Part shown: one piece after another, positions 1-12,865 of the stretch
How positions within the stretch are numbered: position 1 is the first letter of the stretch
How the letters are laid out: every line of letters begins with the position of its first letter
Assembly: GCF_001458395.1 (NCBI RefSeq)
Contig: NZ_CYSR01000034.1
Span: 1-64,000, forward strand
DNA length: 64,000 nt
From: Leisingera aquaemixtae
Lineage (GTDB): Bacteria; Pseudomonadota; Alphaproteobacteria; Rhodobacterales; Rhodobacteraceae
Direction: 5' to 3'
The notes under the pieces: generated by a model
Databases searched by the model: none
The model's input: only the letters and a program-made list of their open reading frames with translations
Told to the model about the DNA's origin: nothing
Translations under genes and position numbers: made by a program

Positions 1-546
1 GGTTATCTGGGGTCACAGGATACGTTCTATGTCGGCACGCTGAAGGGCGTCGGGCGGGTCTACCAGCAGACCTATGTCGACACCTATTGCAAGGTCGCCC
101 ATGCCAAGCTCTATACGACCAAAACCCCGATCACTGCCGCTGATCTGCTGAATGATCGCGTCCTGCCATTCCACGATGAACACGACCTGCCGGTGCTGCG
201 GATCATGACGGACCGGGGCACGGAATACTGCGGCCGGGCCGACAAGCACGACTACCAGCTCTTCCTGGCCATCAATGACATCGACCACACCAAGACCAAG
301 GTGAAATCGCCCCAGACCAACGGCATCTGCGAGCGGTTCCACAAGACCATTTTGCAGGAGTTCTATCAGGTCGCGTTCCGCAAAAAGCTCTACGACAGCA
401 TCGGTGCGCTGCAAACGGACCTCGACGAATGGCTGCATAACTACAACCACCAACGCACTCATCAGGGCAAAATGTGTTGCGGCAGAACGCCGTTCCAGAC
501 CATGATTGAAGGCAAGCAGATCTGGAAGGAAAAGTTCGTGAACTGA
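1..546 (+). CDS. IS481-like family transposase, C-terminal part (5' end outside window)
   Basis: The frame is open from the first base, so this is the last 181 residues of a longer DDE transposase whose start lies left of the window. It is the integrase-core (rve) catalytic region. The three acidic residues can be placed: D in VDTYCKVAHAKL (about residue 27), D in IMTDRGTEYCG, and E in NGICERFHKT. The tail YNHQRTHQGKMCCGRTPFQ is the usual C-terminal motif of IS481/IS3-like enzymes; a single-ORF form and the TGTAG-type terminal repeat downstream favour IS481. The visible part has no stop or frameshift, so the copy may be intact. It sits against the end of the recombinase/ParB module, which it appears to have interrupted. 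Transposase is certain; the family is likely. Confidence 0.85.
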   Translation, partial: GYLGSQDTFYVGTLKGVGRVYQQTYVDTYCKVAHAKLYTTKTPITAADLLNDRVLPFHDEHDLPVLRIMTDRGTEYCGRADKHDYQLFLAINDIDHTKTKVKSPQTNGICERFHKTILQEFYQVAFRKKLYDSIGALQTDLDEWLHNYNHQRTHQGKMCCGRTPFQTMIEGKQIWKEKFVN

Positions 547-582
547 ACTTGGCCTGACAGACGCCGCCGGAAAAACGGCCAA

Positions 583-609
583 CTGTCAGATCACATCTGA
601 ACCACTACA
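583..609. repeat. Probable right terminal inverted repeat of the IS
   Basis: Read on the minus strand this stretch begins TGTAGTGGTTCAGATGTGAT, the form expected for an IS481-type terminus (TGT at the outer tip). It lies 37 bases after the transposase stop. The matching left repeat is outside the window, so the assignment rests on position and on the TGT tip. The exact outer edge (base 609) and any target duplication cannot be confirmed here. Confidence 0.5.
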
Positions 610-799
610 TGTGAGCAACATTCACACTTCTGCCGGATGTAAAATCCCGGCTTTGTGGGCTCCGCACGGGATCGCCGCCATCCCCACAGCCGCACTTGAT
701 CCGCCCCACCGTGCGGCGTCTCCTGCGGTCCCCGCGCTTTTTCGGGTCCGGGTCCCCAGTCGTGATCCCATCCCAATTGACGGGAACCACTTGGATCAC
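605..799 (-). pseudogene. Possible fourth ORF of the recombinase/ParB operon, truncated by the IS
   Basis: A GTG codon at 799 overlaps the stop of the preceding parB-like gene in a GTGA arrangement (4 bases). This is the same kind of tight coupling that joins the other genes of this operon. The 64-residue frame begins VIQVVPVNWDGITTGDPDPK, continues with a very basic stretch (KKRGDRRRRRTVGR) and has a C-G-C pair. It ends at a TAG inside the IS terminal repeat, so the stop is supplied by the insertion. The real gene, if it is one, probably continued beyond base 610. No family is recognised. It could be a non-coding trailer, because the frame is short and GC-rich. Confidence 0.3.
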
Positions 800-1695
800 A
801 AAGTCAGTGCTTCCGTCTCCGTAACCTTTTCAAATTCGGGCAGAAACTCGGTATGGTGCATTTCTATGTATCGTACGATCCGTGGGTTTTTGATGAGCTT
901 GGAAACATACCCCCGCGCCAGAACCAGATCGAGATGATCGGATCCGTAGGTATCTTCGACCAATCGCAGCTCCCGCTCCAGATTTGCAGACTCGCGTTCC
1001 ATAAGCTCAAGTTGCTGGCGGGAAACCCCCTTTGCAGCCTTGGGTTTCTCCGGATTGACAAGCTGGCTTTCAGGCGTCGCAGCCAGCAGCGACTTCGCAT
1101 AGTTCACGGTGAACTTGTTCATGGTTACCATCAGCTCCGCAGCTTCGATCTGGCGCAGCGGCTTCATCTTCTTGAGAACACGAAACCCCGTCAGCGTGAC
1201 CTGCTTGTCCTTCAGCAATTCGGCCGCTTCTGGACAGATCCCATCCAACAGGCGCCTCTTCTCCTGGAGCGTTTTGATGTTGATATTCAAGGCGCGCGCT
1301 AATCTCTCCTCTGGTACGCCACGCTTCAATGCCATCAGGATCATTTTGTGTTCCTGAATGATCGCAAGCCGGCTGATGCGCTTGTTGTAGGTATAAGCTT
1401 CGTCATCAGTGGAGATTTGGCAAAGAGCATCACGCTTACCCAGGTCTTGCAGGATTGCATGGCGCAAGTGCCCATCGAGAAGCATGTAATTCCCTGGGTC
1501 AGACTTGTCCGCAGTGACGACAAGTGGCTCGACCAGACCGATTTCCTCAACGGATGCAGCAACCTGACGATACTTGACCGTCTCCTTTGTCCCTTTCTGG
1601 ACGACGTAAAGTGGATAGATGCGTCTCAGCGGCACACGGACAAATTCCTTTTCAAACGCCAGAGTAATCTGTTTCTTTTGCTTTGAACCCTTCAT
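796..1695 (-). CDS. ParB/RepB-like DNA-binding protein (second of pair)
   Basis: 299 residues. The N-terminal ParB-like nuclease/CTPase fold spans about residues 12-95 (VPLRRIYPLYVVQKG, then VEEIGLVEPLVV). LLDGHLRHAILQDLG stands where ParB has its G-x-x-R box. A helix-turn-helix follows at about 115-150 (RLARALNINIKTLQEKRRLL), then a RepB-like C-terminal half. In plasmid RepABC systems RepB binds parS with RepA, a ParA ATPase. No ParA or RepC gene lies here, so a classical partition role is not supported. It is the last intact gene of an operon with the serine recombinase: its ATG overlaps the previous stop by four bases (ATGA). It probably helps the recombinase recognise or organise DNA ends, which is an inference. 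Confidence 0.8.
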   Translation of the reverse strand: MKGSKQKKQITLAFEKEFVRVPLRRIYPLYVVQKGTKETVKYRQVAASVEEIGLVEPLVVTADKSDPGNYMLLDGHLRHAILQDLGKRDALCQISTDDEAYTYNKRISRLAIIQEHKMILMALKRGVPEERLARALNINIKTLQEKRRLLDGICPEAAELLKDKQVTLTGFRVLKKMKPLRQIEAAELMVTMNKFTVNYAKSLLAATPESQLVNPEKPKAAKGVSRQQLELMERESANLERELRLVEDTYGSDHLDLVLARGYVSKLIKNPRIVRYIEMHHTEFLPEFEKVTETEALTL

Positions 1696-2585
1696 TGTAT
1701 TTCCCCTGTGCGGGACGCAAGCCTGTCAGTCAGCTTCTTCGGAATTGTCGCCAGGCTTTCCGCGCGAAGCAATGTCACGAAATTTTCATCGTTCAGCAAA
1801 GTCCGCAAAGCTTCCGTGATGAACATCAATTCGTTGCGGGTTGCCGTCGCCTTTCGAAGCAGCACCTGCTTCTTCTCCACGTCGTTTTGGTATGTGCGCA
1901 GCAGGCTTTCGACAGATAGCGGCCGTCTTGGCCGTTTATCCGTGCCGGGCTGCCCCTTGCCATGCTTCTGGCGAGCCTCCACCAAGCGCTTTGCGGCCAA
2001 GAGCCTGCTCCCCCGGAGAAGGTTGCTCTCATAGGCCTGGCGCAGGATGTCTTGTACTTTTGTATCGTCGGCGTCGGCGATGTCGACAGCTACACTTACC
2101 GGAATTTTGCTACTTTCAACCGCCCGTAGAAGCCTGTGTTCACCGCTTTCCAAAAGCCGCAGCACACCGCGCACATATTTCATCGTCAGATTAGTCTTTT
2201 GCGCGATCTCGACGTCTGAATAGCCCCTATCTTTCAAACCTTTAATGTCGCGGAGCAGATCCAGAGCTCTGTGCTGCCGGCGGGCTACATTCTCAACAAG
2301 ACTCATGACAAGACAATCTTCACCGCTGGCGGAAATCACGATCGCGGGGATTTCTGTTTGCCCAAGCTCTTGGAAGGCTTCCAGCCGTCCCTGGCCGCAA
2401 ACCAAATCATAATGCGGGCCAGCATCGCTGTCTCTTCTTGCTACCGTGATGGGCCGTTTCAGGCCCAGTACAGCAATGCTGTCGACCAGCGCAGCAAAGG
2501 CATTACGGTTTCGAACGCGAGGATTGATGACCGTAATTCGATCAATTGGCACCATTTCCGCAGCTGTGTGAGCTTCCTCAATCAT
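1692..2585 (-). CDS. ParB N-terminal domain protein (first of pair)
   Basis: 297 residues from the ATG at 2585, which overlaps the recombinase stop by one base (TGATG). The longer frame to 2651 would overlap the recombinase and was not used. The ParB/sulfiredoxin-like domain covers about residues 10-95: VPIDRITVINPRVRNR, then LVDSIAVLGLKRPITV, then CGQGRLEAFQELG (the ParB G-x-x-R box) and SLVENVARRQH. A helix-turn-helix follows (YSDVEIAQKTNLTMKYVRGV, about 118-137), then a basic C-terminal half with coiled-coil character. It differs in sequence from the neighbouring ParB-like protein, so the pair is not a recent duplication. It is coupled to that gene by a 4-base ATGA overlap. Function within the module is unknown. 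Confidence 0.8.
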   Translation of the reverse strand: MIEEAHTAAEMVPIDRITVINPRVRNRNAFAALVDSIAVLGLKRPITVARRDSDAGPHYDLVCGQGRLEAFQELGQTEIPAIVISASGEDCLVMSLVENVARRQHRALDLLRDIKGLKDRGYSDVEIAQKTNLTMKYVRGVLRLLESGEHRLLRAVESSKIPVSVAVDIADADDTKVQDILRQAYESNLLRGSRLLAAKRLVEARQKHGKGQPGTDKRPRRPLSVESLLRTYQNDVEKKQVLLRKATATRNELMFITEALRTLLNDENFVTLLRAESLATIPKKLTDRLASRTGEIQ

Positions 2586-4159
2586 CAGGCAGCCTCCGGA
2601 AGTGGTACCTGAATCGCCATTTCGAACAGGGGAGACAGCGTGCCGAAACAATAAGCATCAAGCGATAACCCGTTGTTCTCTGCAAGCCGAAGGCGCGGTA
2701 GTGTCATGTCGATGCCTGGAAGCAGGTAATAATCGAGCGGACTCTGGTTCGGCCTGTCCATACGAACAGCAACAGTAATGTCGGGCTTCAACCTCGTGTC
2801 GAAACGGATGTTCCAGCGGAGGGAACCTGCGCTTGTCTGATGACACCGGACAATGACCAGTGAAGCGGTAAACTCATTGTTAATGGTCAGGAGATCCGTA
2901 CTTGGATCCTGTTCTACAAACCCGCCTGCTGCTTCAATTCCTGCTATAGTTTCCGCCACAACACCAGGGTGCAGCTCACGCAGGCGACGATTGATCTCAA
3001 TATACCGATAGTCGCGATCCGGTTGGAAACCAACAAGCTTGTATGCGCGAATTAAGCTCCCGAATCGGGTGCGGTAAGAACCGCTTGACGGAAGCGCGTC
3101 CGCTTCGTCGATGATCAGGCCTGACAAATACCCCTGGGATTGAAGGATATCCCGAAGGCCGGCCAGCATCTCATCGTCAGTCAGCCTTGCTGATCTCGCG
3201 CCAATGATGGCACCAGCCGCGGAAAAGAGCTCCGGATCGACAATTGCTTCGAAGACACCCTCCGCTCTGACCCAAGTATCCGGGTCGTTTTGCACCCGAT
3301 ACTTCTTCAACTTGAAAGAGCTTCGGTTCCAGACATTGTTCCCGATGTATTTCTCGTTGATCAGAAGCTGGTGCACAGTACCTCGGGTCCAAGCTCGTCC
3401 CAGATCGGTCAGTATTCCACGGGAGTTCAGCTTCTCCGAGATTTCTGTTTCAGATTTGCGTTCCTCGACAAATGATCGAAATATCTCTACTACGATGGCA
3501 ATTTCTTCGTCAGGCCCTGGCACAAGGATCACCCGGTCGGTTTGAATACTCTTATGCTGGCCTCGTTCAAGAATACCTTTGGGCTGACCTCCCTCATCGA
3601 TCAACATACGCCTCAGACCGAAACCCGGCGGCCCGCCCTGCCGGAACCCGCGTTCAATCAGGCGGCATTGCCCGGCGAATACCTTCTGGGAAAGCTCGCG
3701 GCTGTATTCACCGGCCATCGCACGTTTGACGCCTTTGACAATCGTCGATACCGGACTGCCATCATTCTCAAATTGCTCGGCACAATAGACGACTGATATG
3801 CCCGCACGCTTGCAGATGTATTCGTAATAAGCACTTTCGTCGGCATCCTGAAACCGCCCCCAGCGGCTGATGTCGTAGACAAGAACAACCTTGAAATCGG
3901 CGTTCCCGGACTGAATGTCTTCGAGAAGCTGCTTCAGCCCGTCGCGCCCTTGAATTCGAAGACCGCTCTTTCCTTCATCCGAATAGGTCCGAACGATGTC
4001 GATGCCTCGCCGCCGGGCGTATTGCGCAATGGCGTCAGACTGGTTCTCAGTAGAGTAGCGCTGGTGTTCTGTAGACATGCGCACGTATTGCGCTCCGCGG
4101 ATCGCACGCTGGGATTTTGGAGCCCCAGGGCTCTCTTCATGATCATCGCGCCGACTCAA
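2585..4159 (-). CDS. Large serine recombinase (resolvase/invertase family)
   Basis: 524 residues from a TTG at 4159, chosen because a strong Shine-Dalgarno (GGAGGT, bases 4169-4174) lies nine bases before it; an in-frame ATG at 4225 has no such site. Domains: resolvase catalytic fold at about 20-165 with the nucleophile serine in YVRMSTEHQ (about residue 29) and the arginine signature of ISRWGRFQD; recombinase DNA-binding domain at about 180-330 (PPGFGLRRMLID, then IGNNVWNR). Instead of the usual zinc ribbon and coiled coil, the C-terminal half has a helical segment LPSSGSYRTRFGSLIRAYKL resembling homing-endonuclease-associated repeats. This is followed by an unrecognised beta-rich domain. 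It heads the operon with the two ParB-like genes and is divergent from a small gene. It should catalyse integration/excision or inversion of DNA. Confidence 0.88.
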   Translation of the reverse strand: MSRRDDHEESPGAPKSQRAIRGAQYVRMSTEHQRYSTENQSDAIAQYARRRGIDIVRTYSDEGKSGLRIQGRDGLKQLLEDIQSGNADFKVVLVYDISRWGRFQDADESAYYEYICKRAGISVVYCAEQFENDGSPVSTIVKGVKRAMAGEYSRELSQKVFAGQCRLIERGFRQGGPPGFGLRRMLIDEGGQPKGILERGQHKSIQTDRVILVPGPDEEIAIVVEIFRSFVEERKSETEISEKLNSRGILTDLGRAWTRGTVHQLLINEKYIGNNVWNRSSFKLKKYRVQNDPDTWVRAEGVFEAIVDPELFSAAGAIIGARSARLTDDEMLAGLRDILQSQGYLSGLIIDEADALPSSGSYRTRFGSLIRAYKLVGFQPDRDYRYIEINRRLRELHPGVVAETIAGIEAAGGFVEQDPSTDLLTINNEFTASLVIVRCHQTSAGSLRWNIRFDTRLKPDITVAVRMDRPNQSPLDYYLLPGIDMTLPRLRLAENNGLSLDAYCFGTLSPLFEMAIQVPLPEAA

Positions 4160-4297
4160 GAGCCAATCACCTCCCTTCGTCAAAATCCAAATCAGTTGGG
4201 AATGGCCGCGATTCCTGCGTGCCAAAGCTTAAACGCGGGACCTCGGAAAAGTGTTTCCGAAGATGGGCAATGTTTTTTCAGATCAGGACAAGGGCAA
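4160..4297. promoter_or_regulatory. Divergent control region of the recombinase module
   Basis: 138 bases separate the recombinase TTG (minus) from the small gene at 4298 (plus), so both promoters should lie here or just inside the coding ends. The minus-strand ribosome-binding site GGAGGT is at 4169-4174. No convincing -35/-10 pair was picked out. The small divergent protein is a natural candidate for a regulator acting here. Confidence 0.4.
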
Positions 4298-4666
4298 ATG
4301 AACAAATTAGACTACCGACTGGAGATCTCGGCTGCACTAAAGCGCGAACTTGGGGGATCTCACCGGGCGATCAAGGCTTCCATGAATTGGACAGGGGCAT
4401 CTGAGAGAACCGCGAAGAACTGGTTGGCCGGAGCAAACTGCCCAACGGGCGAGCACTTGATCGAGCTCATGAGGCACTCAAATGAGGTCGCGTTAACTGT
4501 ATTGGCCTTGTGCGGCAGAAACGAAGCATGCATTTCTTTTGAGCTCGATCGGCTCCGCCAAACACTTGTCAGAATGCTCTCGACTGCAGAGGAAATTTTG
4601 GGCCCAGAATCTGGGGCACCGCATCAAGCCGCAGAAAACCGTCGCGGCAGCAAAGAAAGCTCATAG
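4298..4666 (+). CDS. Small HTH-like protein divergent from the recombinase
   Basis: 122 residues. The ATG at 4298 is preceded by AAGGG. The same frame is open back to 3950, but that part is antisense to the recombinase and was not used. The N-terminal 65 residues (AALKRELGGSHRAIKASMNW, then GASERTAKNWLAGANCPTGE, then LIELMRHSNEV) look like a helix-turn-helix of the kind used by small phage and mobile-element repressors. Here the kinase-like phrase ERTAKNWLAG would be the recognition turn. The C-terminal tail (about 66-122) is predicted helical and ends in a polar KESS. Location and orientation suggest a regulator of the recombinase operon. No specific family is claimed. Confidence 0.6.
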   Translation: MNKLDYRLEISAALKRELGGSHRAIKASMNWTGASERTAKNWLAGANCPTGEHLIELMRHSNEVALTVLALCGRNEACISFELDRLRQTLVRMLSTAEEILGPESGAPHQAAENRRGSKESS

Positions 4667-5699
4667 TCTGCTCAGGTACCGAGTGTGGCGCGTCCTCAAG
4701 GCACTGCAAAATGATCCATGCCTGAGACAGTGAAATCTGAAGGCCCGAGAAAGCCTGTTTCTGCCCCATGCGCGCCGGGCAGTCATGGGGTCCGGATTCC
4801 TGCAACGCATTTGCTCAACCGGGCACTGCATCCTCAGACTGCAGCGTGGATACAAACTGGGATACGTTCTTTTCCACTTGACCACATATCCTCAGTATTT
4901 TACCTTTTAATTGTGTAATAACATGGACTTAGCATGGCATCCTACCACCCCAGCCATCGGCTTCTCACACAAGAAAACAAGCACCCGGTGCACCCGTTAG
5001 CCCCGAAAAGGCCCCCGGTTTCGGCCCCAGTGTTTTGGCGTGCTGTTAGCGGCTTCAGAACGTGTGTCTCGGGTGGGTCGGGAGGCCCCCAGCGGGCTGC
5101 TGGAGACCATCGCCACAGGTTAGAGCAAGCGAAAGTCCACATCGTTCGCCCAGTGATCCCAGTCATCGCACTCGTTATCCGCCGCCGACCCTTCGATCAG
5201 ATGTTCTGGCCGACAGCACAGTTGATTTCCTCCCCCTTTGCCTGAAAGACGGTTTCGCTGCTGAGAGTGCGGGACTTGGCCATGGCCGCGCCCTTGGCGA
5301 GGGAGAATTCACACTGCCCTTCTGCCCCGCCAACTCCTCCGCCGTTTCTGCCGCGCTGCGATCAGGTCGCGGGGTTTGCATCCGCACGATCCGGCCCGGA
5401 ATTACGCGCTGAAGCAGAAATTGCACGCATACCGTGCGTAGCCGCCGCCAAACTTCAGACAGCGGCAAACCGCCTTGCGAGGCTGCAGCAAGGCGGCCTG
5501 AACAGCCTGAACAGTGTCCTGTTGAAGAGTGACGCAAGGTCACTTATGATGCCGGAACGCACGCAGGCTTGCTGCTGATGCAACGTGCTGAACCTCCCCC
5601 CTCAATATTTTACAATCAGTAATTGCAAAACAAATTAAGGCAATGCAATATGATGGTGATTTAATATTAGATGCAACAATCGTTCAGTGGGGTTGACGG
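4667..5699. other. 1.0-kb gene-poor junction between accessory module and chromosome-like genes
   Basis: No frame here has convincing coding character. Several short ORFs are open only because of high GC. AT-rich patches occur at about 4895-4930 and 5600-5670; the second probably holds the promoter for the gene at 5700. A minus-strand frame ending at 5120 has an acidic, tryptophan-rich end (ECDDWDHWANDVDFRLL) that looks like a real protein C-terminus, so the region may hold a decayed gene. One strong hairpin lies at 5470-5496. This may be the right boundary of the mobile module, but no flanking direct repeat was recognised. Confidence 0.4.
5470..5496. other. Hairpin (9-bp arms) in the junction region
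   Basis: CCGCCTTGC at 5470-5478 pairs perfectly with GCAAGGCGG at 5488-5496 across a nine-base loop. No T-tract follows on either strand, so it is not a standard terminator. Function is unknown. Confidence 0.4.
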
Positions 5700-7358
5700 A
5701 TGACTGTCTTTCTCAAGATTTGCCGGTTTGGAGCTTTTGGCGTCTTTGATGCGCAAGGGGAAAACGTACAGCTGGGGGCCAAGCACCAGGCGCTGATGTC
5801 GCTGCTGTCCACGGCCGACGGAGGGATACGGACGCGGGCGTTTCTGGAGAAGACACTGTGGTGCCTGGCACAGCCGGAGCAGGCCAAGGCCAGCCTGCGC
5901 ACGGCGCTGTCGACGCTGCGGCGGCACCTGGGGCCGGAGGCGGCCAAGCTGCTGTTTGCCAACCGCGAACGGGTCATTCTGGACCTGACCCGGGTGGAGC
6001 TGGACAGCTGCGCCGGCAGTTCGGAATTCATGGAAGGTTTTGAGCTGCCTCATGAATCCGTCTTCAATAGCTGGCTGTCGGACACCCGGGCGGAGTTTTC
6101 CCGCAGTTCCGCGCACCCGGTGCCGCAGGCTGGTGCCGCTCCGGGGCGGGTGATCCTGGACAGATTGCTGCCGTCGATTGCGGTTCTGCCCTTTGTTCAC
6201 CGGTCACCGGGGGCCGCGGATGCGCCGCTTGGATCGCTGATGTCCGAAGAGCTGTCGCGGCACCTGTCGCGCAGCTGGGCTTTCTCGGTGACGTCCTACC
6301 TCGCCTCACGCCAGTTTGACCCGGAAAAGGTGCGCCCGGCCGAGGTGTCCTCGGTTGCGGGGGTCGACTACCTGATTTCGGGAACGGTCACCAGCGACGG
6401 CGGCCGGTTCCGCGCCGAAATAGACCTGCATGATGCGGTCCGCGAGAAGGTGATCTGGTCGCGCAGCTTTGACGGCAGCAAGAGCAGCCTGATGGAGGGA
6501 CGCAGCTCCGTCCTGCGCAACGCAACGCTGCAGATCGGCCAGACCGCCGCGGGCGAGGCGGTCCGGCTGGCCGGGTTCAAGCCGCTGAAGGCGCTGGAAA
6601 GCCATGTGCTGCTGATGGCGGCGATCTCACTGATGCAGGAAATGGACGCGGGCAAATTCCAGCGCGCGCATGAAATCCTGTCCCATCTGCTGGAGCGGGA
6701 GCCGAACCATGCGCTGCCGCTGACCTGGATGGGATTCTGGCATGTGATGCGGGTGGAAAAGGGGTTGTCGCCGAACCGGGAGGAGGACAGCCGTCTTGCC
6801 AGCAGGATGGCGGACGCGGCCATTGACGCGGCGCCCGCGTTCTCACTGGCCCACACCCTCAAGGGGCTCATCTCCAGCCACCTGACCTTCCGGTTCGACC
6901 TGGCGCAGGACGCTTATGACCTGGCACTGCGCGACAACCCGAACGAAGCCTTGGCGCTGCTGCTCAAAGGGGCGACGCTGGCGTACCAGGATATGCCGGA
7001 CGCGGCGGTGCAAATGACAGATGCGGCGCGGCAGCTGACCCCCTTGGGACCGCAGTGCTATTATTTTGACGCGATTTCGGCCCTGGCACATTTGTCGGCC
7101 CGCAATTACGGCCGCGCGATCGAACTGGCCGACCGCTCGCTGGACGCCAAGGGCGCCTTCCCGGTGCCGCTGCGCTCCAAGGCGATTGCCTTGCAGATGT
7201 CCGGACGGGGCGACGAGGCCCGGAGCACGGTGCAGAAGCTGCTGGAGGCAGCGCCGAAGTTCTGCCTGTCGCAATTCCAGCGTGACAACCCCGCCGCGAT
7301 GAGCCCTGCGGGACCGGAATGGGCCTCTGCCCTGCGGCAGGCCGGGGTGCCGGAGTAA
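5700..7358 (+). CDS. SARP-type winged-helix / TolB-like / TPR regulatory protein
   Basis: 552 residues. The N-terminal segment (about 5-100; FGAFGVFDAQGENVQL, then SLRTALSTLRRHLG) matches the SARP/BTAD-style winged helix in which a short beta platform precedes helices. A TolB/FlgO-like domain follows at about 160-275 (LPSIAVLPFVHRS, LMSEELSRHLSRSW, VDYLISGTV). The rest, about 280-540, is helical TPR-like repeats, with alternating A/L-rich helices and phrases such as REPNHALPLTWMGF. Proteins of this build in alphaproteobacteria are often paired with or fused to class III adenylate cyclases; no cyclase domain is present here. There is no membrane segment. The likely role is a cytoplasmic signalling or transcription factor with unknown target. 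It is transcribed alone and toward the small gene at 7524. Confidence 0.7.
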   Translation: MTVFLKICRFGAFGVFDAQGENVQLGAKHQALMSLLSTADGGIRTRAFLEKTLWCLAQPEQAKASLRTALSTLRRHLGPEAAKLLFANRERVILDLTRVELDSCAGSSEFMEGFELPHESVFNSWLSDTRAEFSRSSAHPVPQAGAAPGRVILDRLLPSIAVLPFVHRSPGAADAPLGSLMSEELSRHLSRSWAFSVTSYLASRQFDPEKVRPAEVSSVAGVDYLISGTVTSDGGRFRAEIDLHDAVREKVIWSRSFDGSKSSLMEGRSSVLRNATLQIGQTAAGEAVRLAGFKPLKALESHVLLMAAISLMQEMDAGKFQRAHEILSHLLEREPNHALPLTWMGFWHVMRVEKGLSPNREEDSRLASRMADAAIDAAPAFSLAHTLKGLISSHLTFRFDLAQDAYDLALRDNPNEALALLLKGATLAYQDMPDAAVQMTDAARQLTPLGPQCYYFDAISALAHLSARNYGRAIELADRSLDAKGAFPVPLRSKAIALQMSGRGDEARSTVQKLLEAAPKFCLSQFQRDNPAAMSPAGPEWASALRQAGVPE

Positions 7359-7523
7359 CCCTGACCGGGCGCCGCCAAGCCCCGGCTGCCGGGTGACGCT
7401 GGGAAATGCGCATCTGGCCCGCATCTTTTGCCGAAAGGCCAGGATAAACGTGTTAGCATCCGGTAGAACCCGGCGGCTGGCCGGGCCGGCAATGACCCGC
7501 AAAGGGCGGCGCAGGGAGAGGGC

Positions 7524-7982
7524 GTGAGCGAACATCTGGAATTTGAACGGCGCTTCTCGGGCTTCGGGCCGGCGGTCCGGCCCGAGGAACGGACACAGGA
7601 GATTCTCGACATTGTGGACGGCTTCATGCACCGCTGGGGCTACTCGGTCAGCAATCTGATCGGCGCAGAACTGACAGTGGGGCATCTTGGCGGCAGCCCG
7701 GAAGGGGCCCCGGACCTGATATTCCGCATGGCGGTGCTGGACTATTTCGAAATTGTCATCCGCAGCCGCAACGGCACCGTCAGCTATGGCGGCTGGCTCA
7801 CCGGCACCTTACCGGTCTCGGTGTCCAGTGAGCAGGTCAACGGCCGCCCGGTTCTGCTTACCACCTGCCGCGAGGGCGGCCGGATCCGCCATGTGTTCGA
7901 TCCGCTGGCCGGGTACCGTCCGGTGGCGGATGCCGCTAACCTGCCGTTGCATGCTGTGTGGCGGCTCTCGGACCCGGCCTAG
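7524..7982 (+). CDS. Hypothetical protein, 152 aa
   Basis: A GTG at 7524 follows the site GGAGAGG at good spacing and gives 152 residues. Sequence begins MSEHLEFERRFSGFGPAVRP and includes PDLIFRMAVLDYFEIVIR and NGTVSYGGWLTG. It has no signal peptide, no membrane segment and no recognised motif. Mixed alpha/beta composition suggests a small soluble cytoplasmic protein. It lies 165 bases after the SARP/TPR gene in the same direction and may be cotranscribed with it. The function is not known. Confidence 0.6.
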   Translation: MSEHLEFERRFSGFGPAVRPEERTQEILDIVDGFMHRWGYSVSNLIGAELTVGHLGGSPEGAPDLIFRMAVLDYFEIVIRSRNGTVSYGGWLTGTLPVSVSSEQVNGRPVLLTTCREGGRIRHVFDPLAGYRPVADAANLPLHAVWRLSDPA

Positions 7983-8225
7983 GCGCAGCCCCAAGACGCT
8001 TGCGGTCATCTGCTCCGGGACCGCCGCGCCGCTGCCGGCCGGTAAAATACAACGGACTTTCCCGCGCCTGCTCATGCTTTCTTTAGAGTCTTTCTGGCCT
8101 TCTAGCACAAAGAAGCAGGCGGGCGGACTTGCACCTGCAATCCCTGACCAGTCCCGCGCGCCAGCGGGGTGCCCCATGACTGGCCCGGGTTCAGATAGAA
8201 GCGGGCGGATGCATTGGGTGAGACG

Positions 8226-10874
8226 ATGACTATTGAAAAAGACGTTCCGGCGCGGCGCCGTTTCCGGCTGTTTTCCAGTATTGGCGCCAAGATCACGCTG
8301 ATCCTGATGACGATGGGCGCTGCCTGCGCCGTGGGCGGCATCCTGGTCACCCTGGTGTTCACGCAGACCGGCCGTCAAATGCAGGTTCTGACGCAAGAGA
8401 AGGTCCCGCAGCTGGAGCTGAGCAGCCGCCTGGTAAATGCCGCAGGCCAAGCCAAAAACACGATGATCGGCGTTCTGCAGGCCGGATCGGTTGAGGATCT
8501 GGCCCAGGCCGAGGAAAAGGCCGCCGCCGCCATCGCGCATCTGAACAGCACGGTCGCCGGGCTGCCCGCCGGGGAGCAGGCCCAATTCGCACCGGAGGCC
8601 GCTGCCGCTGCTGAACGGCTCAATAACCTGATTGCCGCGCGCAAAGGCGCCTTCGCCAACCAGGTTGCAATCGACACCCGGACCGCCCGCCTGCAGACCC
8701 TCAGCCAGGCGGTGCAGGACAAGCTTGTCATGGTCGCCTCCGAAGCCCGCAACAGCCTGATGGACGGCGGCGAAGAGACCATCATCCAGGTCGACGAGGT
8801 TCTGAACGATCTGGTGGAGCAGCAATTCGGCGGACTGCAAACGCTGCTGGAAGCACGCGCGGACATCAGCATCCTGTCCGGCGCGGCGCTGGCACTGGGG
8901 CATGTGCGCGACGTCCCGACCAAAGGGGCGCTCAAGAAAATGGCCAAAGACGCGCTGAAACGGCTGGAGCCTGTGCTGGGCCGGCTCGAAGAGCTGGGAC
9001 TGGACGCCGGCCGGGTGCAAAAGGTCCGCGAGTCGGTGGAGCTGTTCCGCTATACGCTGACGGCCAGCCGCAAGGAGCTGAAGGACAGCCGCAAGGAGGT
9101 GCTGGCCGCCCGCAACGCCAGCGTGCGCCCGCTGACGCAGGCGATGGAGCGGATGGTATTCACCCTGTCGGTCGCAGCAACCCAGGCCAGTGCAGACAAC
9201 CGCACCGCCATCCAGGGCCTGCTGGACAACCAGGTCGGCGTGCTGCAGCAGCTTCTGGAAATCAACGGCTGGATCAGCGCCTTTCAGGTTGCGGCGCTGG
9301 ACATGGCCGCAGCGCATGAGATTTCCGCCGCCCGGGCCGCTGCCGGACCGCTGCAGGACGCCGCCGCTGCGCTGGCGGGCTACAGCGGGTTCAATGACGG
9401 GGTGTTTGCTCAGGAACTGGAAGGGATGATCGCGCTTGCCGATCCCTCGCAAGGCCTGCCGGTGTTCAAGGCCGCGGCGCTGGAGGCTGCGGCCGAAGCT
9501 GCTACGGCATCGCAGGCCACCGTGGACGCCGTGCTGGAATTTGCTGGCAAGGCGACCGCCCTCGGGGCCGAAAGCCAGCTGGAAATCGCCTCAATCGCGG
9601 ACGGGCTCGCCAGCGACGTGACCGCAGCACAGCGGCAGCTGCAGATCCTGGCGGCTGTGGCGGCGGCGGTGTTTCTGGCGGCGCTGGTTCTGACCCGGAT
9701 TCTGATCCTGCGCCCGCTGGCCGATATCAGCGGCACAACTGAGCGGCTGGCCGCCGGAAATCTGCGCCCGGTGACCGGTTACGAGCGCTCCAGCGATGAA
9801 ATTTACCGCATCGCCACGGCGCTGTCGGTATTCCGCGACGGGCTGGTGCAAAAGGCCGAAGTGGAGGCCGCAGCCGAAGCGGAGCGCGATGCGCGCCTGG
9901 CCGAGCAGACCGCCGCGGTTACGGCCATCGGCAGCGGTCTGGAACGGCTGTCGCAGGGCGACCTGACCTACCGCATCCGCACCGAAATGGGCGAAGGCTA
10001 TGCCAAGCTGCGCGACGATTTCAACGCAGCGCTGGAGAAGCTGGAGGCCTCGGTGAGCAGTCTCAGCGCCAGCGGCCAGTCGATTGCCGGCGGCAGCACC
10101 GAAATTTCCTCGGCGTCCCGCAACCTCTCCGAACGTTCGGAGCACACTGCCCAAACCCTGGCCGGAACCGCGGCGGCGGTGAACCAGCTTTCGGTCTCAA
10201 TCGCCGGCACCGCCCAGGCCTCGGGCGAGGCCTCCGCCTCGGTCGAGGCGGCACGCCAGAACGCCAATGAGAGCATTGAGGTGGTCAAACGGACCTACGG
10301 CGCGATGGAGGCGATCAAGGAAAGCTCCGAGAAGATTTCCCGAATCATCGGCATGATCGAGGCAATTGCCCAGCAGACCAACCTGCTGGCGCTGAACGCC
10401 GGCGTCGAGGCGGCCCGGGCAGGCAATGTCGGCAAGGGGTTTGCCGTGGTCGCCTCGGAGGTGCGGACGCTGGCGCACCGGTCCAAGGAAGCCGCCACGG
10501 AAATCGCCGCTTTGGTGGAGGAAGCGGGCCAGAATGTCGAGCTTGGCGCCGATCTGGTCGAGCAGACCCGCGCGGCGATCAGCGACATTTCTGCCTCTGT
10601 CACCAGCGCGGCCGACCTTATGAAGTCCATTTCCCAGGCATCCTCGGAACAATCCGGCAGCCTGCAGGAGATCAACACCGCAATGGCCAATCTCGACGAC
10701 GCCACCACCCGCAACGCGGCCCTGTTCGAGGAGGTCACCTCCTCCAGCCTGGGGCTGTCCAAGGAAGCTCAGGCTATGGCTGGCGCCATCGGCGCCTTCC
10801 GCACTCAAGCGGCGGCCCCCGGACATAGTGCCAGCGGCACAGAGCAAGAGGAGATCTGGCGGCTGCAGGCCTGA
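8226..10874 (+). CDS. Methyl-accepting chemotaxis protein (large periplasmic helical sensor)
   Basis: 882 residues from the ATG at 8226, preceded by GGGTGAG. A membrane helix lies at about 22-45 ([19 protein letters not shown]). A long, almost wholly helical periplasmic region follows to about 470, then a second membrane helix at about 471-493 ([20 protein letters not shown]), a HAMP region at about 494-547 and a further HAMP-like linker. The methyl-accepting signalling domain has the hairpin tip [20 protein letters not shown] and [13 protein letters not shown]. The periplasmic part is unusually long (about 425 residues) and repetitive in A, L, E and Q, suggesting stacked four-helix bundles. 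The C-terminus (EEIWRLQA) is only a weak match to a CheR tether. The ligand is unknown, and no che genes are near. Confidence 0.92.
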
Positions 10875-10898
10875 GGCGGTGCTCGAAACAGCCCTGCC

Positions 10899-11810
10899 CT
10901 ACTCCCCGGCAACGAAGCGGTAGCCGCTGCCGGACCGTTCTGCCCGCCCGATGCCGCCGCCCGGCAAGTGATAGCCAATCAGCCGCATCTGCTCCGCGGC
11001 CAGCAGATCCAGCAGGCGCAGGCGCGTCGCGGCCGCCGTTTGCGGATCCTGGTCAGAGCCGACCGGCCAGGAGGGTTCTGCAAAGCTGACATGGTGATTG
11101 CCAACCGCGTCGCCCAGGATCAGGACGCTTTCACTGCCGCCGCGGACTTCAAAGGCCATATGCCCCGGCGTGTGGCCGGGGGTGGCGCGGGCGGCAACGC
11201 CGGGCAGGATTTCCGCCCCATCGGCGAACAGCTGCACCCTGTCCTCCAGCGCCTCCATCCGGCGGCGCGCCCCGGCGGCCATGGCAGCGCGGCTGCTGCC
11301 GATGCTGGCGGCCGTGTCCGGATCGTACCAGTAATCCCATTCATCCTGCCCCATCAGAAAGGCCGCCTCGGGGAACAGCAGTTCATCGAAATCGTCCAGC
11401 ACCCCCCACAGATGATCCGGGTGGCAATGGGTAAAGACCACGTGGGTTACGTCCTCCGGGGCGACCCCGATGGCCTCCAGCGCCCCTGGCAGCTTGCCCG
11501 CGCTGTCCTGAAACCCCGGCCCGGAACCTGCGTCAAACAGAACCACCCGGCCCTCGTCCCTGAGCAGGGTGACATTGACCTCTGGCATCAGCGGCCCCGC
11601 CCCGATCCCGTAGCGGTGCAGCAGCGGTTGCAGCGCCTCCGGGTCAAGCCCGCCAAAGATGAATTCCGGCGGCAGGGTCAGGTGGCCGTCCGACAGCGTT
11701 TCAATCTTCTTGGCCCCCAGCTCGATCCGGGCCAGCGCCCATCCCGGTGCCGCCGCCGCAGCCAGCCCCGCCGCAGCCCCCAGGCCGAAATTCCGTCTGC
11801 TTAAGGCCAT
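10899..11810 (-). CDS. Tat-exported metallo-beta-lactamase-fold hydrolase
   Basis: 303 residues. A twin-arginine signal opens the protein (SRRNFGLGAAAGLAAAAAPG), so export of the folded metalloenzyme to the periplasm is expected. The metal site is clear: HCHPDHLWG (H-x-H-x-D-H) at about 129-137, a later histidine in TPGHTPGHM and an aspartate in LILGDAVGNHH. The arrangement is that of the lactonase/quorum-quenching-like MBL group, but substrate cannot be told from sequence. It ends 24 bases from the stop of the chemoreceptor gene, the two being convergent. It is the last gene before pcaQ on the same strand, separated by 128 bases, and there is no clear link to the pca genes. Confidence 0.85.
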   Translation of the reverse strand: MALSRRNFGLGAAAGLAAAAAPGWALARIELGAKKIETLSDGHLTLPPEFIFGGLDPEALQPLLHRYGIGAGPLMPEVNVTLLRDEGRVVLFDAGSGPGFQDSAGKLPGALEAIGVAPEDVTHVVFTHCHPDHLWGVLDDFDELLFPEAAFLMGQDEWDYWYDPDTAASIGSSRAAMAAGARRRMEALEDRVQLFADGAEILPGVAARATPGHTPGHMAFEVRGGSESVLILGDAVGNHHVSFAEPSWPVGSDQDPQTAAATRLRLLDLLAAEQMRLIGYHLPGGGIGRAERSGSGYRFVAGE

Positions 11811-11938
11811 CGCCTTTCCTCCCGCTTCAGTCTGCCTGCATCAAATGCAAATATTCTATTTGGTGAATTATACGGCATGGCCGCAGCAACGCAAACTCCT
11901 GCATTGCCGCAGTCCTGCCAGTCCGGCCAGCAGCGGCG

Positions 11939-12865
11939 CTAAACCAGTCCCAGAGCGGCGCAATGGCTGCGCAGCGCGGCGCAAAACCGCTGTGCAGCGG
12001 CGGTCAGCCGGTGATCGCGGCGGGTGCACAGGCCAACCGGGCCCAAGGTGCTGTCCGTGTTCACCGGCAGCGCAGCCATGGTGCCCGCCTGCAGATCCGG
12101 CCGCACCACGCCGTGACTAATGATCCAGACCGCCTGATGCGCCAGCACGAAGCGGCGCCCAAAGGAAGATGAGACCGTCTCGACCGGAAAGCGCGGCAAC
12201 GCCAGCCCCTGCTCCAGAAACATCCGCTCGACCAGAGGGCGGATGATAGACCCTTCCGACGGTATCAGCACCGGATAATCCTCAAACACCGCCGGCGGCA
12301 GATGGGCAGCCCCGGCCAGCGGGTGGCCTGCTGCGACCACCACCGCGACGCGCTCACGGTACAAGGGGTCGAATTCCACCCCGGCCATCGTTTCCGGCGC
12401 GGGCAGCCGGCCGACCACCACATCCAGGCTGCCGCGGCGCAGCTGGTCAATCAGATACTGATTGCCGCCGGACATCACCAGGAACCGCCCCGGTGCCCTG
12501 CCTGCACGCAGCTGCGCCAGCGTGTCGGGCACCAGATCCGCTGCCACTGTAGGCAGCGCCCCGATGTAGACCTGCGGCCCCTCCGCCTCCCCCAGGCCCT
12601 GCAGCAGCGCCACCCCGTCACGCGCCAGCGCCAGGCTGCGCCCCGCATGATCCCGGAACAGCTCTCCATAGCTGCTGAGCCGGATGCCGCGGCCATGTTT
12701 TTCCACCAGCGGCTTGCCGCAGACCGCCTCCAGCTCGCGCAGCGCCCGGGTAACAGCGGGCTGGGTCATGCCCAGCGCCTCAGCCGCCTGGGTGACGCTC
12801 AGCTTGCGGGCGACTTCAACGAAGACTTCAAGATGGCGCAGCTTCAAAGAGGACGAAAGTCTCAT
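11939..12865 (-). CDS. pcaQ: LysR-family regulator of protocatechuate genes, PcaQ
   Basis: 308 residues, the usual length for PcaQ. The N-terminal LysR winged helix lies at about 8-67 (LRHLEVFVEVARKLSVTQAA, MTQPAVTRALRELE), followed by the two-lobed effector domain (VYIGALPTVAADLVPDTLAQ, VIWIISHGVV-type end). The gene is divergent from pcaCHG, the arrangement in which PcaQ activates the pca operon in response to a ring-cleavage product such as beta-carboxy-muconate or its lactone. Identification rests on both the sequence and this context. The 86-base divergent region holds inverted ATAC/GTAT elements that could be its operator. Confidence 0.85.
   Translation of the reverse strand: MRLSSSLKLRHLEVFVEVARKLSVTQAAEALGMTQPAVTRALRELEAVCGKPLVEKHGRGIRLSSYGELFRDHAGRSLALARDGVALLQGLGEAEGPQVYIGALPTVAADLVPDTLAQLRAGRAPGRFLVMSGGNQYLIDQLRRGSLDVVVGRLPAPETMAGVEFDPLYRERVAVVVAAGHPLAGAAHLPPAVFEDYPVLIPSEGSIIRPLVERMFLEQGLALPRFPVETVSSSFGRRFVLAHQAVWIISHGVVRPDLQAGTMAALPVNTDSTLGPVGLCTRRDHRLTAAAQRFCAALRSHCAALGLV

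Follow-up and report, generated by a model that had tools for sequence, protein, structure and literature searches.

Large serine recombinases and integrases (SPbeta, phiC31, Bxb1, CcrB) and the ParABS and repABC systems are the described systems closest to the locus analysed here; in repABC, the counter-transcribed RNA between repB and repC is antisense. Our locus lies at the start of a 64,000-nucleotide stretch of Leisingera aquaemixtae DNA (the window) and encodes a serine recombinase, Rec, followed by two ParB/RepB-like proteins, here called ParB and RepB, and by a candidate structured RNA. Comparison of this module with the described systems revealed several likenesses and differences: (i) Rec shares the catalytic and recombinase domains of large serine integrases (Pfam, NCBIfam, Foldseek), but it stands in one operon with two ParB-like proteins, has a C-terminal domain that lacks a Pfam match and looks nuclease-like in Foldseek, and in 11 of 44 virus records sits at the other end from a second recombinase; (ii) ParB_N and PF07506 domains and profile similarity to Spo0J, Noc and ParB link the module to ParABS and repABC, whereas it has no adjacent ParA, RepA or RepC, places its two ParB-like proteins behind a recombinase, and occupies chromosomal and prophage loci too; and (iii) unlike the repABC counter-transcribed RNA, the candidate RNA of the module is on the sense strand. 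The main components in the window are as follows.

2585-4159, minus strand: Rec, serine recombinase (Pfam: Resolvase, E 3.7e-25; Recombinase PF07508, E 6e-21)
2588-3160, minus strand: C-terminal domain of Rec, 191 residues, nuclease-like fold suspected (Foldseek, weak)
1692-2585, minus strand: ParB, second gene (Pfam: ParB_N, E 9.3e-10; PF07506, E 1.1e-14)
796-1695, minus strand: RepB, third gene, 299 residues (Pfam: PF07506, E 5.7e-46)
630-757, minus strand: core of the structured element, a candidate RNA of about 128 nt with seven helices, directly 3' of RepB
4298-4666, plus strand: small divergent gene, 122 residues, candidate regulator, with homologues divergent from Rec elsewhere

The stop codon of Rec and the start of ParB overlap as TGATG, and the stop of ParB and the start of RepB as ATGA. 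The start of Rec was set at a TTG preceded by GGAGGTGA; the program that called the open reading frames uses another TTG, at 4225. The preliminary description of this locus had proposed a large serine recombinase coupled in this way to two ParB/RepB-like proteins and lacking ParA, RepA and RepC. The open reading frames and Pfam matches confirm the coupled trio, and none of the three missing genes is adjacent to the module in the window or part of it in the annotated plasmid copies; for ParA, this refers to the neighbourhood of the module, no genome-wide search having been made.

Recombinase, ParB and RepB form one dedicated module of fixed order. We collected 167 loci, comprising the best 80 of 573 relatives from a genome collection (RepB alignment scan), 72 virus contigs, 6 annotated records, 8 stretches of related genomes, and the window. 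All three genes are present in 139 of these, in the same order and on the same strand in every case (139/139); the incomplete loci are either cut by the locus edge (26) or lack a gene despite room for it (2, L052 and L118). In a separate sample of genomes from the phylum of the window, RepB matches (E<=1e-40) were found in 26 of 398, including the genome of the window itself. Rec and ParB lie directly upstream of RepB in 24 of the 25 other loci, and the RepB of the 25th is broken; one of the 25 (L307, genome G096) is the already known locus L054. The module occurs on chromosomes, on plasmids and in virus records, and annotated plasmid copies with the same order and generic domain names come from Roseomonas, Agrobacterium (pAtC58), Methylibium, Aminobacter and Sphingobium. 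Among the matches listed, the closest named relatives of RepB belong to Rhodobacteraceae. The gene order is thus beyond chance, and the trio is neither a scattered neighbourhood nor bound to one plasmid backbone, which bears out the earlier proposal of a dedicated system with conserved order. With RepB in 26 of the 398 sampled genomes, the module is not rare, yet it is unnamed as a system in Pfam, NCBIfam, PADLOC, PHROGs and Rfam. No paper on the trio or its RNA was found in open-access full texts; subscription papers and preprints mostly fall outside this search, so that an earlier description is possible.

The active site of Rec is conserved. Its catalytic domain (Resolvase) precedes the Recombinase domain in Pfam, and all 77 aligned rows agree in the catalytic Tyr, Arg, Ser, Asp, Arg and Arg; these rows had been chosen with a loose catalytic pattern. 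Among the 133 Rec reading frames scoring at least 500, 126 pass this loose pattern and a length test, and the motifs YxRxS and Dx[ST]RxGR are present in all 126; the remaining seven either lack the pattern (three at a contig edge, one split) or are short (three). The AlphaFold2 model of Rec (mean predicted local distance difference test score, pLDDT, 84.6; predicted template modelling score, pTM, 0.54) groups with the large serine integrases SPbeta, phiC31 and Bxb1 in Foldseek. The C-terminal domain of the window copy has no Pfam match, zinc ribbon included. Modelled alone (pLDDT 88.7, pTM 0.70), these 191 residues match I-Ssp6803I at E 8.8e-4, the sole match at 0.001 or better; weaker matches are NhoI (0.026), PvuII and Holliday-junction resolvases (Hjc), as well as viral proteins, two of them named PD(D/E)XK. 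Candidates for a nuclease triad are three acidic residues of the domain, E96, D127 and D143, which are invariant in the 77 rows. From these models we suspect a nuclease-like fold in the tail of Rec, the signal being consistent but weak.

Profile searches relate ParB to Spo0J, ParB, Noc and KorB, and RepB to Noc and Spo0J. Of putative motifs of the cytidine triphosphate (CTP) type, CGxGRxxA is found in 138 of 152 ParB sequences and LDGHxR in 153 of 167 RepB sequences. In the window copy of ParB, the ParB_N match is above the cut-off.

The structured element 3' of RepB had been overlooked in the preliminary description. It lies in the span 605-799, which holds no gene. Although RepB of L011, L040, L053 and L057 is only 44-57% identical to that of the window, the DNA just 3' of RepB is 80-85% identical in these loci. 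An nhmmer profile finds the element in 94 of the 167 loci, always on the strand of the trio and 5-101 nt past the end of the RepB frame, except in three loci with a split RepB, where the distance was counted from the first piece, and in the second copy of L059. This second copy (L059:15972-16099) is decayed and lies 5 kb downstream of the first, past further genes; L059 is the only locus with such a copy.

The alignment of the element contains 62 diverse rows left from 95 hits after removal of near-duplicates, and seven degenerate or truncated copies were left out (L062, L075, L143, L152, L169, L193, L200). The RNAalifold consensus of the 62 copies has seven helices with 29 pairs, of which 15 have both sides changed in at least one sequence. 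Paired cells amount to 95.5% against 87.4 +/- 0.4% in shuffled alignments, and the covariation score of 0.281 (shuffled, 0.131 +/- 0.006) was reached by none of 500 shuffles; sliding the partners against each other drops the pairing to 31-43%. The double changes weigh most among these results, because kinship can beat the shuffles without any structure and the slid controls favour a fold derived from the same alignment. A coding block was ruled out, since stop codons interrupt every one of the six frames in 21-33 of the 62 sequences and the length of the core varies by single bases (100-105 nt).

The model of the element, R1, scores the window copy at 131.2 bits. Applied to 289 genomes of the class of the window, it hits 16 places in 13 genomes, all of them adjoining RepB (16/16), three beside a RepB fragment (L213, L216, L220); three of the 16 hits (G000, G043) are already known loci. 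In this sample, the element was not seen as a repeat elsewhere in the genomes. In Rfam, no match at the gathering score was obtained for positions 1-12000 of the window, and a single sub-threshold match, psRNA2, lies on the opposite strand (21.8 bits against 65). A hairpin with perfect arms of 8-14 bp starts 131-170 nt past the start of the element in 19 of 26 loci examined, and in L122 and L148 it is followed by TTTTTT, as in a terminator. The window is among the seven loci without this hairpin; its core is intact, and an insertion sequence starts 20 nt beyond, where the 3' hairpins would be.

The element is present in a part of the family only: 5 of the 25 loci of the separate RepB sample contain it, and its presence clusters on the RepB tree (16 Fitch changes; mean 52.5 and minimum 42 in 200 shuffles). 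Diverged copies in the other loci were considered and rejected, as R1 run over 79 sources gave full matches only where nhmmer already had a hit. Reading 50 regions downstream of RepB by eye gave no common second motif. Just 3' of RepB in L080 there is a 28-nt remnant of the element (E 0.18, also recognizable by eye), an apparent trace of RNA loss at this locus. In L084 and L124, stretches resembling tRNA 3' ends lie within 260 bp past RepB (by eye), as at integration sites. Taken together, covariation and position make the element a candidate RNA confined to this locus, not universal in the family.

Two other interpretations of the conserved block were weighed. It could be a DNA site, such as a ParB centromere, an att (attachment) site or a site folding as single-stranded DNA; its position in a recombinase-ParB operon fits this, and single-stranded DNA that folds can likewise acquire compensatory changes. 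Against a DNA site stand the nested multi-helix fold, found always on the strand of the trio and just 3' of RepB, the terminator-like hairpin and T-run that follow in L122 and L148, and the excess of G-U over A-C cells (92 versus 23), a count that leans one way as the fold was derived on this strand. We regard a DNA site as rather unlikely. A programmable guide that aims the recombinase would likewise suit a recombinase operon with its own structured RNA, but the core has no clearly hypervariable unpaired block (mean entropy 0.49 bit at unpaired and 0.38 bit at paired positions) and most loci of the separate sample do without the RNA, which makes a guide very improbable.

The surroundings of the trio were analysed in prophages and on chromosomes. 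Integrases were surveyed in 44 of the 72 virus records, which may be fragments: a tyrosine integrase is present in 8 of the 44, and a serine recombinase besides that of the trio in 17. This other serine recombinase is near the opposite end of the record in 11 (G351, G355, G357, G362, G364, G369, G371, G377, G378, G384, G386) and elsewhere in six (G352, G375, G376, G388, G389, G392). The PF03354 terminase model matches 1 of the 44 records; it is poorly suited to this set and uninformative. In several loci, tail genes converge on the module. A first prophage family was assembled from 80 relatives gathered by a tail protein, 7 of which have RepB, while two more end in the RNA region. The similarity on the tail side stops near the same point in many other relatives, and eight relatives without the trio share both borders of the slot that extends from the tail genes to the prophage end.

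In five of these relatives, the slot holds strong matches to known defence genes, namely AbiEi/AbiEii (L237), IetA/IetS (L245), GajA/GajB of Gabija (L264) and HerA/SIR2 (L265), and a weak match to a Zac-like pair (L262). The scan covered 10 of 45 distinct slot proteins (50 before removal of similar ones) from five loci, and a follow-on scan covered nine of those 10 and one protein of L233; L259 and L281 were left out, and L269 was omitted as similar to L264. The trio thus occupies a cargo position in some prophages, in one family the same slot as prophage defence cargo (AbiE, IetAS, Gabija, SIR2-HerA), which it does not resemble in that it matches no PADLOC model and that the slot of a second family gave no PADLOC hits. 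A further likeness, conceptual only, is to BstA, which is likewise carried by prophages and has a non-coding element at its gene: aba, a short DNA element overlapping the start of bstA (PMC8585504). The element of our module instead lies 3' of the operon and shows the covariation expected of an RNA.

On chromosomes, 119 of the 129 listed nearest neighbours of the trio were taken and match 13 PADLOC families (restriction, methylase, Fic and candidate-defence). For comparison, 113 proteins from 19 unrelated stretches, one position chosen by us in each of 19 genomes, match 36 PADLOC families; in the first 25 of these, with protein identities read from the family names, the matches look mainly like housekeeping homologues (RtcR, UvrD-type helicase, cysteine desulfurase). 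In six islands (L050, L063, L064, L067, L076, L099), a TniQ-type gene, of which one representative was scanned, and clusters of neighbours point to the trio.

The explanation we favour, quite possible though short of probable, is that the trio and the divergent gene, joined in part of the family by the RNA, constitute a self-contained accessory cargo system of prophages, islands and plasmids that protects its carrier against competing mobile DNA. In its favour are the fixed gene order, the RNA, the conserved active site of Rec, the cargo position and the defence-gene slot in prophages, and the PADLOC families matched next to chromosomal loci. We do not rate it higher because the hotspot evidence is strong in one prophage family and absent in another. 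In such a system, the small protein would control the divergent promoters. ParB and RepB, produced with Rec in a fixed ratio, would be loaded on DNA as clamps of the ParB type and bring Rec there. The clamped DNA might then be cut or rejoined by the serine active site of Rec, to which the C-terminal domain would add recognition or cleavage. The 3' RNA, from the same transcript, could join the complex, tune the operon, or mark the carrier's own copy as self. A more specific version is a ribonucleoprotein conflict system. In it, the two ParB clamps would aim a serine recombinase whose tail is nuclease-like, and this recombinase would cut or rearrange DNA belonging to competing phages and plasmids; its own structured RNA would tune or license it, or prevent self-attack. 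We take this version to be unlikely as it stands. A recombinase serving as a weapon would be surprising.

Several observations weigh against a defence role: (i) 20 of the 44 virus records have neither a tyrosine integrase nor another serine recombinase; (ii) no PADLOC model matches the trio, which gives weak domain-level hits only (best E 0.0022); (iii) a Fic-type protein is encoded upstream of the trio in eight trio-bearing loci (a cluster of which one representative was scanned), and in the trio-bearing members of the first family this Fic gene, lying in the slot, could itself be the defence gene; (iv) in the second prophage family, no PADLOC match was obtained for 10 proteins of six trio-less loci, in none of which the far border was confirmed, and one of the 10 is a Ro60/Rsr homologue; (v) genes 6-10 kb away from the chromosomal trio match PADLOC at least as often as the nearest ones (51 families, 97 proteins), and because of these counts there is no near-versus-far contrast; and (vi) 20 of the 25 separately sampled loci are without the element. 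The gene for the Ro60/Rsr homologue is at L379:14034-15635 (E 7e-106 to 2nvo), in a prophage relative without the trio, where it lies past the tail genes.

Two further explanations assign the module to the upkeep or the movement of its carrier. At a site close to the module, Rec could separate cointegrates or multimers of its carrier, and the two ParB-like proteins could organize the synapse, as accessory proteins do for a resolvase; ParB without ParA would then have a new job. Tn5053-type transposons keep their resolvase beside TniQ and transposase genes, and in several islands genes for TniQ and a Mu-type transposase adjoin the trio. Rec resembles the TniR resolvase of these transposons as a serine recombinase next to TniQ, but it exceeds 500 residues and has two ParB partners. 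In seven of seven TniQ genomes, the 10 kb on either side of the trio contain no other Resolvase match (for L062, the Rec of the trio itself went unmatched too), and because of this result we still grant resolution a minor place, while judging it rather unlikely: transposition genes are absent from most loci, trio prophages are integrated elements that often have another recombinase, and no res-like site was identified. Alternatively, Rec could be the integrase of the element; ParB and RepB would then serve as accessory factors or set the direction, and att sites would flank the module or the island. Its large-serine-integrase domains, the 20 virus records with no other integrase, and the recurrence of module borders just past the divergent gene in pairwise comparisons would agree with this. 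Evidence to the contrary comes from the 11 of 44 records in which another serine recombinase sits at the end away from the trio, from the 8 with a tyrosine integrase, from the C-terminal domain of Rec, which is not of the usual zinc-ribbon type (Pfam), and from the failure to find att repeats or a clean empty site; we hold integration to be unlikely. The preliminary description had also suggested that the trio might be a mobile element of its own, with att ends to be sought by flank comparison; the recombinase at the opposite end and the variable cargo slot in one prophage family do not favour that idea, and the flanks yielded neither an att pair nor an empty site that a trio-only element would leave. 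Whatever its role, the module brings together serine recombination, ParB-type clamps and a structured element of its own, a candidate RNA.

The remaining features of the window concern the region upstream of Rec and the borders of the module.

4243-4260, between Rec and the divergent gene: palindrome TCGGAAAAGTGTTTCCGA, candidate operator
1-609, plus strand: insertion sequence of the IS481 family, at the contig start
4877-5223: right border zone, from comparison with genomes of the same genus

The 122-residue divergent open reading frame has no Pfam or NCBIfam match, and its one PHROG match is to phrog_23106 (E 1.4e-10), a family without an assigned function; among PDB profiles, it hits HigA-2-type antitoxins at E about 0.04, with unrelated chains scoring better. 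Homologues are present in at least 81 of 122 loci with room for the gene, a count made with a spacing filter that overlooked the window's own copy. Of the small divergent helix-turn-helix-like protein in the preliminary description, the divergent position therefore stands, and the helix-turn-helix nature is left unproven by hits of this strength. The palindrome TCGGAAAAGTGTTTCCGA also occurs in L058, a match made with no chance control. Upstream of Rec in L057, L102 and L107, there is a palindrome of the GGNCCGAAAATTTCGGNCC type with arms of 9 bp, which differs from TCGGAAAAGTGTTTCCGA; these are candidate operators, likewise with no chance control.

At 173 bits (E 6.8e-51), the transposase fragment of the IS481 family at the contig start stays under the family cut-off of 224. 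The insertion sequence recurs at five other places in the genome, each time ending at the base that corresponds to window position 609. As the contig begins inside this insertion sequence, no left border of the module was obtainable in the window. Break points in pairwise comparisons recur just past the divergent gene, and no direct repeats were found at these points. On the right, matches of the same genus to the window begin at 4877 (G011) or 4939 (G004) and extend rightwards. Several places in genomes of the same genus (three in G003) contain the stretch of about 280 bp at 4939-5223 or a part of it, and it looks like an island-end or hotspot repeat.

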